Source of the DNA: Vibrio coralliilyticus
Lineage (GTDB): Bacteria > Pseudomonadota > Gammaproteobacteria > Enterobacterales > Vibrionaceae
Length of the DNA: 64,000 bases
Direction: 5' to 3'
Assembly: GCF_024449095.1 (NCBI RefSeq)
Contig: NZ_CP024627.1
Span: 496,001-560,000 of the forward strand
Part shown: positions 34,874 through 36,679 of the stretch, one piece after another
Layout: each line of letters begins with the position of its first letter
How positions within the stretch are numbered: the stretch's first letter is position 1
Notes under the pieces: model-generated
Database searches by the model: none
The model's input: the letters and a program-made list of their open reading frames with translations, nothing else
What the model was told of the DNA's origin: nothing
Program-made: the position numbers and the translations under genes

Positions 34874-35539
34874 TTAGACAAAGTGTTGTTCAAGAATTTT
34901 GGCAGTAAACTGAGTACGAAGATAGAATCCGCGCGGCAACGTCATTATAGGTTTGCCGCTCGCTCCATAGGCTTCGGTTAAAACACGACTGTTGGCTGCT
35001 TTTGGTCTTAGTTGAAGGACTTCGCCATGGCGCGCTGTAATTTGTTCGACTCTTCCTAAAACGATCATCTCCATCAGTTCTTCCCAGTCCGTTTTGAGCT
35101 GACATTCTTCGCTTTGGTTTGGTGACCAAATAAGAGGTGAGCCAACTCGACGTTCGGCTAATGGAATTTCTCGCTCTCCTTGTACGGGCACCCAAAGAAC
35201 ACGTGATAGCTTGTTGCGGACATGACTGGTTTCCCAAGTTAAACCTTGAACTCCTATTAATGGTGCGACACAAACAAAAGTGGTTTCTAAGGGTTTTCCG
35301 CTATGACTGATTGGGATTGTTTTAAGCTCTATGCCGAGTTGTTCAAAGTCTTGTTGCGGCTTGCTACCCGCTATGGCACCCAGATGCCATTCGAGTAGTT
35401 GTCCAACCCAGCCTTTGTCTCTTCTCAAATCAGGTGGAATGGTAAGCTCAGCTTCTGCGGCAAGCTCTTGAAAACTGATACCAGCAATCTCCCTTGCTCG
35501 GTCAAGCAGCTCTGTTTCTGACTTGGGTTCAGGTTTCAT
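34874..35539 (-). CDS. mutH: DNA mismatch repair endonuclease MutH
   Basis: Nicks the unmethylated strand at hemimethylated GATC sites during methyl-directed mismatch repair. The 221 residues show the restriction-like core: catalytic Asp in [15 protein letters not shown] (the E-x-K of ELKTI, near residue 70) with the Gly/Lys segment [16 protein letters not shown] upstream (about 40-55), and the C-terminal helices with [16 protein letters not shown]. Its presence shows that this organism uses Dam methylation. It is divergent from rppH, with the 620-bp DnaA-box region between, and convergent with a small unknown gene. Confidence 0.96.
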
Positions 35540-35587
35540 GTGGGTTTATCGGCTTGGTCAAATGTGATGGTCATTGTAACGGAATTT

Positions 35588-36125
35588 GATCCAAATGTGA
35601 CTGGTGAAAAATTGATCTTAGAGTTGAAAAGATCATCGTTTAATGAGTTATCCACAGAATTAGTCGTGTGCTAGTTGTAATTTTTCCATGTTGTATGAAT
35701 AAACAGTGCTTTTAATGCGAATTTTTACTTGAATTTTCCAACGCTAATTGTATTTGTTATTTTTTTTGTGGATAAATATAGTGCTGATGGATCTTTAACC
35801 GATCGTATTTGGGATTGTCTGTTTGATCATTACAGCATGATGTGAATTATCAATGTTTTCTTATCTTTTTGATTTTATTTCTATTTTTTGGTTTTTGATT
35901 TAAGGTTTTATCGAGTTTTAAGGTGTAATGGATAAACAACGATCACTTTCACTAAGATTCTACACATGGTTATACACAGAAAAGGTGTATAAATGTGGCC
36001 TGAGTCTCACCTTTGTGTGTATAACCTAGCTTTAGGCTAAAAGTTATCCATGAAAGGCAAGTTAAGCCATATTTTACGTATCAGTCACACTAGTAAGTTT
36101 GCTACATCTGGGGATATGTGGAAAA
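35588..36125. other. DnaA-box/GATC cluster in the mutH-rppH gap, probable DARS2-type locus
   Basis: The 621-bp gap 35540-36160 has no gene. It holds four perfect DnaA boxes of the TTATNCACA type: 35648-35656 (+), 35767-35775 (-), 35970-35978 (+) and 36016-36024 (-), plus one-mismatch boxes at 35984-35992 (-) and 36117-36125 (-). Three lie within 55 bp (35970-36024), as in a DARS core. Seven GATC sites fall in 35588-35944, where about 1.4 are expected by chance. TATCAATGTTTTC (35848-35860) matches the IHF consensus in 12 of 13 positions, and 35855-35900 is extremely T-rich. In E. coli, DARS2, which converts ADP-DnaA to ATP-DnaA, lies in the mutH-rppH gap. The role here is inferred. Confidence 0.7.
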
Positions 36126-36160
36126 ATCACTGTAATTAAGAATTTATTAGAGGTTGGCCA

Positions 36161-36679
36161 GTGATAGATGGCGATGGTTACCGCTTAAATGTGGGAATTG
36201 TAATCTGTAACAACCATGGTCAGGTCTTCTGGGCTAAACGATACGGGCAACATTCATGGCAATTTCCTCAGGGAGGAATTGACGACGGTGAAACTCCTGA
36301 GCAGGCAATGTACCGGGAGCTCTACGAAGAGGTTGGTCTTACTAAAAAAGAGGTAAAAATTGTAGCCACTAGCCGTCATTGGTTAAGGTATAAACTACCA
36401 AAACGATTAGTGCGCTGGGATTCGAAACCTGTCTGTATCGGACAAAAACAGAAATGGTTCCTTCTTCGTCTGGATTGTGATGAATCACGAATTAATATGC
36501 AGCGAGGGAATTCCCCTGAATTTGATGGTTGGCGTTGGGTGAGTTACTGGTATCCAGTCAGGCAAGTCGTATCCTTTAAGCGTGATGTTTATCGTCGAGC
36601 CATGAAGGAATTTGCCTCTGTCGCAATGCCATTTAAAGAACGCAGAGCGAAAGGTAAACGCAAACATAAAAGAGGATAG
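36161..36679 (+). CDS. rppH: RNA pyrophosphohydrolase
   Basis: Nudix hydrolase that removes pyrophosphate from the 5' end of mRNA and so opens it to RNase E. The Nudix box [23 protein letters not shown] (about 37-59) matches GX5EX7REUXEEXGU fully. The start is GTG 36161 ([18 protein letters not shown]) after AGAGGTTGGCCA. The 172 residues include a basic tail ([14 protein letters not shown]) suited to RNA binding. It is followed 2 bases later by ptsP, the same order as in E. coli. Confidence 0.97.

Follow-up and report, generated by a model that had tools for sequence, protein, structure and literature searches.

A probable Vibrio orthologue of DARS2 between mutH and rppH, and a DARS-core-like DnaA-box trio on chromosome 2

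Does the cluster of DnaA boxes between mutH and rppH in this Vibrio genome correspond to DARS2, the site that regenerates ATP-DnaA in Escherichia coli, and does the core of such a site recur elsewhere in a two-chromosome bacterium? In the window, that is, the whole stretch of 64,000 nucleotides that was analysed, mutH (34874-35539, minus strand, PF02976) and rppH (36161-36679, plus strand, NUDIX, PF00293) form a divergent pair that encloses a gap of 621 bp (35540-36160). Four perfect TTATNCACA boxes start in it at 35648(+), 35767(-), 35970(+) and 36016(-), and seven GATC, at 35588, 35614, 35631, 35790, 35801, 35825 and 35941, span 357 bp; on these counts, and on the length of the gap, a recount agrees with the preliminary description of the locus. 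That description gave two one-mismatch boxes, whereas we count five in 35588-36125, at 35694(-), 35841(-), 35958(+), 35984(-) and 36117(-). Under the consensus TT[A/T]TNCACA, the box at 36117 becomes perfect and a further one at 35603(-) has one mismatch.

Such numbers have to be weighed against chance. Over the whole window, perfect boxes are in mild excess (6 against 2.68 expected, with 6 of 100 shuffles reaching 6), and one-mismatch boxes show no excess (57 against 65 expected). The unusual feature is the clustering of the boxes, not a window-wide richness in them: among 400 Markov sequences of 64 kb none exceeded two perfect boxes per 400 bp, against the four of the gap, and none of 5000 sequences with the composition of the gap held at least four. 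At least seven GATC occurred in 13 of 5000 gap-composition sequences, and only one of 1273 stretches of 357 bp from the window, whose mean is 2.63 GATC per 621 bp, contained seven. An Rfam scan of window positions 35400-36300 returned no match at E up to 1.

The comparison with E. coli is what gives the cluster a name. In MG1655 the genes run lgt-ptsP-rppH-ygdT-mutH-ygdQ-ygdR-tas, with the small ygdT frame inside the gap, so that DARS2 is indeed seen between the same two genes, as the preliminary description had stated. The window runs from a tas-like frame through a small frame, mutH, the gap, rppH, a ptsP-like frame and another frame to an lgt-like one, the tas-, ptsP- and lgt-like frames being presumed such by eye. 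The E. coli boxes at 230+, 349-, 534+, 546+, 560- and 592- have counterparts in the same orientation at 35648+, 35767-, 35958+, 35970+, 35984- and 36016-, and four of the five spacings (119, 12, 14 and 32 bp) are identical; the exception is the distance from box V to the core, which is 6 bp longer in the window (V to II, 197 bp in E. coli against 203 bp). The first of these window boxes, TTATCCACA at 35648-35656(+), we would label VI, since the 119 bp that separate it from box V equal the E. coli distance; box V itself is the perfect TTATCCACA at 35767-35775(-), and the flanking TTATACACA at 36016-36024(-) would, by its E. coli spacing, be box IV.

In the cores of both DARS1 and DARS2 of E. 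coli, box I is followed after 5 bp by a reversed box II and, 3 bp further on, by a reversed box III; the minus strand of the window from 35992 to 35958 gives the identical reading. On the plus strand this is box III (TTCTACACA, 35958-35966, plus), 3 bp, box II (TTATACACA, 35970-35978, plus), 5 bp and box I (TTATACACC, 35984-35992, minus), which opposes box II head to head. Three boxes within 55 bp (35970-36024) had been likened to a DARS core; the count of three is right, but the core trio lies at 35958-35992. The double boxes reported under DnaA ChIP peaks, TTCTTCACA-act-CTATCCACA for DARS2 and TAATACACA-tgg-TTATCCACA for DARS1 (Stringer et al. 2024, PMC11317965 Table 1), are the same III-II pairs, and the trio 35970-36024 is therefore not the core.

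Between box V and the core lie the elements that would serve accessory proteins. Of the single IHF-like site described earlier, the presence stands but not the number: there are two sites with one mismatch, GAAAACATTGATA at 35848-35860(-) and TATCTTTTTGATT at 35862-35874(+), the latter scored against TAAnnnnTTGATW and situated 96 bp before the core. A Fis-site-like block at 35785-35804, which is conserved and aligns with E. coli FBS2-3 (TGATGGATCTTTAACC), holds the GATC at 35790 and 35801; its fit to the Fis consensus, judged by eye, is partial. A second GATC pair (35614 and 35631, within 35614-35634) lies outside the 35648 box. The family alignment adds a conserved island between boxes VI and V (TGTATGAATAAACAGTG at 35692-35708, Vibrionaceae consensus TGnATnAATAAACAGGG), a weak conserved box (TTATCCATG, 36044-36052, plus) and, just before rppH, a Vibrionaceae-conserved block at 36098-36129 with the box TTTTCCACA(-) at 36117-36125, where the aligned E. 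coli position has no box. This last block is possibly a DnaA-regulated rppH promoter.

Taken with the flanking genes, the box order, the near-equal spacing, box V, the placed IHF site and the aligned Fis-site-like block, the gap is very probably the Vibrio orthologue of DARS2, and the earlier proposal of a Vibrio DARS2 is supported. A passive site for DnaA titration, or an inactivation site of the datA type, could look similar, as datA too combines a box cluster with an IHF site (PMC4245941), but the place, the core layout, box V and the position of the IHF site all fit DARS2, and we regard this alternative as very improbable. In E. coli the two kinds of site have opposite effects, loss of datA giving more origins and loss of DARS2 fewer (PMC4585315 Table 2).

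The preliminary description had suggested aligning the gap across Vibrionaceae and E. coli by box order and spacing. We found rppH in 150 of 150 family genomes and took gaps from 70 of these (the 30 with the best scores, among them the window's own genome, and 40 hand-picked for spread), plus E. coli; with L009 (the window again), L039 (a 135-bp gap), L040 (no mutH match) and L053 (a 1507-bp gap) excluded, the counted set is 68, namely 67 Vibrionaceae and E. coli. In all 68 the core is intact in its exact spacing with at most three summed mismatches, and in 67 each core box has at most one. The best box in the box V stretch is perfect in 60 of 68, the distance from box V to the core is 189-195 bp in 62, and the 36016 box is present with at most one mismatch at the window spacing in 61; box VI, perfect at exactly 119 bp, is found in only 23. 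A core is present in the long gap of L053, each of its boxes with one mismatch, and the reduced family genomes L039 (G001) and L040 (G002) showed no core upstream of rppH, their best mismatch sums being 10 and 6. The islands of conservation in the alignment are the boxes, the Fis-like block, the place of the IHF site, 35692-35708 and 36098-36129. With up to one mismatch allowed, 34 of 67 gaps have an IHF match whose start lies 95-98 bp ahead of the core, and with up to two, 60 of 67; other 4-bp slots between 40 and 156 bp gave 0-4 genomes in the same test, except the overlapping slot 96 (31). The E. coli match, at 87 bp, falls outside 95-98.

The boxes might instead serve chiefly DnaA control of mutH or rppH transcription, a role that would be compatible with DARS2. 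The divergent genes invite this idea, and so does the family-conserved block with TTTTCCACA directly before rppH; on the other hand, 168 bp separate the core from the start of rppH and 418 bp from that of mutH, and in E. coli the corresponding core has been shown to be a DARS (PMC4245941). We consider it unlikely as their main purpose.

The site also holds a similar place on the chromosome: in 13 genomes it is found 0.31-0.36 of the way from ori1, marked here by a weak ParA-like match, to the opposite point. The corresponding figure for E. coli is 0.41, measured from the textbook position of oriC. The DARS2 layout of E. coli is thus kept piece by piece, and at a similar relative distance from the origin, in a bacterium with two chromosomes.

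The GATC content of the gap departs from E. coli. A GATC element had been guessed at, and the family bears this out in part: the 67 gaps contain 389 GATC against 129 expected from the dinucleotides of each gap, a threefold enrichment with every gap above expectation (67/67), and seven other palindromic tetramers occur 35-110 times each in the same gaps. Of the 67 gaps, 58 have a pair of GATC at most 40 bp apart in the segment of box V and the Fis-like block, and 49 have one near box VI, 440-290 bp ahead of the core. Position by position the picture is uneven, as only 35790 (59/66), 35614 (44/66) and 35801 (35/66) are kept in place in more than half, 35631 being kept in 15/66; the idea that all seven are conserved is ruled out, with 35588 and 35825 kept in 0/66. 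The main texts of Kasho 2014 and 2021 do not mention GATC, SeqA or Dam, and other papers mention DARS2, SeqA and GATC together. The GATC pairs in Vibrionaceae DARS2 gaps, usually near box V, look new, and they suggest a methylation input into DARS2.

By analogy, the biochemistry of DARS2 would be carried over from E. coli. ADP-DnaA would bind boxes I (35984-35992) and II (35970-35978) head to head, with box III (35958-35966) as the tandem partner of box II. An IHF bend near 35848-35874 would bring the core and Fis, which would occupy about 35785-35800, near each other. ADP would leave DnaA, and the freed protein could then load ATP; later, ATP-DnaA at box V would displace Fis. After passage of the fork, Dam methylation and SeqA at the GATC pairs might in addition gate the binding of Fis or DnaA.

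Does the core occur elsewhere? A palindromic pattern, TATNCACAGAAAAGGTGNATAA, matched in 116 of 295 genomes but did not separate DARS2 from other inverted pairs; the three-box pattern was used instead. With up to three mismatches the latter finds three places in this genome: C2:875156-875190 (no mismatch), DARS2 (one) and DARS1 (two); the reversed-pattern control gives one match. The DARS1-type core lies at G000:C1:2278075-2278109(-), upstream of a frame that we take, by eye, to be uvrB. The best match of all, a DARS-core-like trio of DnaA boxes at G000:C2:875156-875190 on the minus strand (L121, L218), is in the terminus half of chromosome 2, a replicon of 1,539,034 bp with presumably parA2/parB2-like genes, identified by eye, at its start; a dif-like site at 772239 lies roughly 103 kb away from the element. 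It stands between an FtsX-type permease gene (PF02687) and an FAD oxidoreductase gene (PF01266). All 17 genomes that could be placed, being those of 45 with known chromosome-2 length, have it far out from parA2, at a fraction of 0.78-1.00 (median 0.95) of the way to the opposite point. An Rfam hit to rliB in the surroundings of the element (22.2 bits, where the gathering score is 40; E 0.024) is taken as chance.

The locus is stable within the genus. A search with the tail of the permease matched in 59 of 61 same-genus genomes, and 57 of the 60 loci in these 59 carry the core at exact spacing; the exceptions are L165 (G452), where the core lies farther on, L167 (G443), with none within 420 bp, and L175, where the other G431 locus is intact. 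Box II mostly has one mismatch in these copies and box III one or two. Among the loci listed in a scan of named genomes (80 of 103), the permease gene was found in 73 of 80 and the FAD gene in 72 of 80. The core is far more alike than its flanks: 42 non-redundant permease-anchored copies have an identity of 0.91 across the 35 bp of the core but of 0.36 in the right flank, and an 81-copy set, anchored on the letters of boxes I and II and partly picked by the named-genome-scan pattern, gives 0.91 for the core against 0.35-0.36 for the flanks. At this pairwise flank identity no conserved IHF/Fis arm or accessory flank was found beside the element.

How widely the pattern is spread was counted per genome at up to two mismatches and whatever the locus, some genomes also matching at the fetB-focA-type site described below: 131 of 197 family genomes match, 95 of 95 in the same genus and 36 of 102 in other genera, against 0 of 197 for the reversed control. 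In five of the 95 (G050, G054, G062, G481, G498) box I reads TTACCCACA. Across the order, the pattern is found in 73 of 394, and outside the family in 40 of 360; the control gives 0. Among the matches listed in the scan of named genomes (80 of 103 stretches), 78 are Vibrio, one an Aliivibrio MAG and one Candidatus Photodesmus. Plesiomonas reportedly has a second chromosome related to that of Vibrio.

Three further observations concern relatives of the pattern. Genus g3 (L200-L212) has diverged matches with TTACCCACA as box I and with neither neighbour found in the stretch examined; genus g11 (L187-L198) has diverged matches with GTGGGTAA in box II and keeps the FAD gene as neighbour. At G000:C1:2140234-2140256 (L120; also L115 and L116) two perfect DnaA boxes stand head to head 5 bp apart, between what we take by eye to be FetB/YbbM-like and formate-transporter-like genes, and a like sequence without a good box III occurs in other Vibrio genomes.

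What could hold 35 bp constant in this way? Boxes I and II are inverted repeats, so that an RNA could fold, and the element might be a hairpin or a terminator belonging to the permease gene upstream; the outer arms are longer in some copies, and an outer A-T pair at -2/+2 forms in 78 of 81 copies. Yet at the other outer positions (11 of 12) no more than 24-53 of 81 copies form a pair; the permease-anchored copies, a set not anchored on letters, read TTATCCACA as box I in 57 of 57, and their arms show no compensatory change. The distance past the permease stop varies from 0 to 348 bp, and positions 900-1400 of L218 contain 0 terminator-like sites. The element moreover persists in two genomes of about 1 Mb without the permease gene beside it, and an RNA structure is quite improbable.

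These two genomes, G442 and G506 (1.0 and 1.1 Mb), have the element beside an rplT-like frame, with neither the permease nor the FAD gene adjoining, and the permease search in G442 gave no match at all; L294, from Candidatus Photodesmus, has the same frames as the G506 locus. At up to three mismatches the three-box pattern finds in them only the element and a DARS1-type place, which in G442 matches on both strands and lies beside frames that are, presumably, rsxA-like and plsX-like (by eye). It returned no DARS2-type match in either genome, and in G080 the same pattern finds the core about 170 bp before rppH, that is, DARS2.

A site for RctB or another protein is a rival raised by the conservation of the spacer: the A-rich 5 bp between the boxes (AAAAC in 41 of 57 copies) and about four outer bases are conserved too, which the boxes alone do not explain. 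An A-rich spacer is, however, conserved in DARS2 as well (GAAAA in 47 of 67), the RctB motifs TGATCA and TTACGG given in PMC11711613 are absent from the element, and in G442 the spacer has changed to TTTTT while boxes I to III each stay within one mismatch. We hold this alternative to be unlikely.

The element has the I-5-II-3-III core of DnaA boxes that characterizes DARS, and we find it likelier to be some sort of DnaA site than to reactivate DnaA. Reactivation, judged from sequence, is possible rather than probable. We tentatively suggest that the element may be a third Vibrio DARS, in the terminus half of chromosome 2, whose late doubling would raise the regeneration of ATP-DnaA towards the end of chromosome 2 replication and so provide a feedback from chromosome 2 to chromosome 1. 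The need of DARS1 for a flanking DNA region (PMC4585315), together with the absence of a conserved flank at the element, counts against this. The recurrence of the three-box core outside DARS1 and DARS2 looks new; the part of the open-access literature available to us yielded no report of a chromosome-2 element. For the question of how chromosome 2 might report to chromosome 1, a conserved 35-bp trio of DnaA boxes near ter2 offers a target for deletion.

Set beside known systems, the site in the window shares with E. coli DARS2 the mutH/rppH flanks, the I-5-II-3-III core, box V, the IHF site and equal outer-box spacings; it differs in the distance between IHF site and core (96 against 87 bp), in its seven GATC against two in the E. 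coli gap, one at the window's 23-bp offset from box V and one near box VI, and in the extra conserved block before rppH. With E. coli DARS1, beside bioD and upstream of uvrB, it shares the core but not the locus. In Vibrio cholerae, DARS-like sequences at the same places are mentioned (PMC6090056, citing Fujimitsu 2009), and PMC8682772 describes the core of DARS2 as conserved in relatives together with FBS2-3 and either box V or weak boxes, V. cholerae N16961 being named in the legend of its Fig. 8. That homologue, likened here by its description rather than letter by letter, has the same locus and belongs to the same family, and since it is in print the window site joins a known class as a new example. 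The chromosome-2 element stands further off: along the A-rich spacer strand, the spacer itself being common to both, its third box lies on the opposite side from that of DARS2, and of its two inverted boxes the weaker one is II rather than I. Sites for IHF and Fis are required by DARS2 and a flanking region by DARS1, with no need for IHF or Fis described for DARS1 in the available text of PMC4585315; the element is without a conserved flank. A functional parallel is crtS on chromosome 1 of V. cholerae, an off-origin site that remodels an initiator and has been likened to DARS (PMC3937223, PMC6139311), although its target is RctB and not DnaA; if the tentative reading of the element is true, chromosome 2 would feed back on the initiation of chromosome 1, the reverse of crtS.
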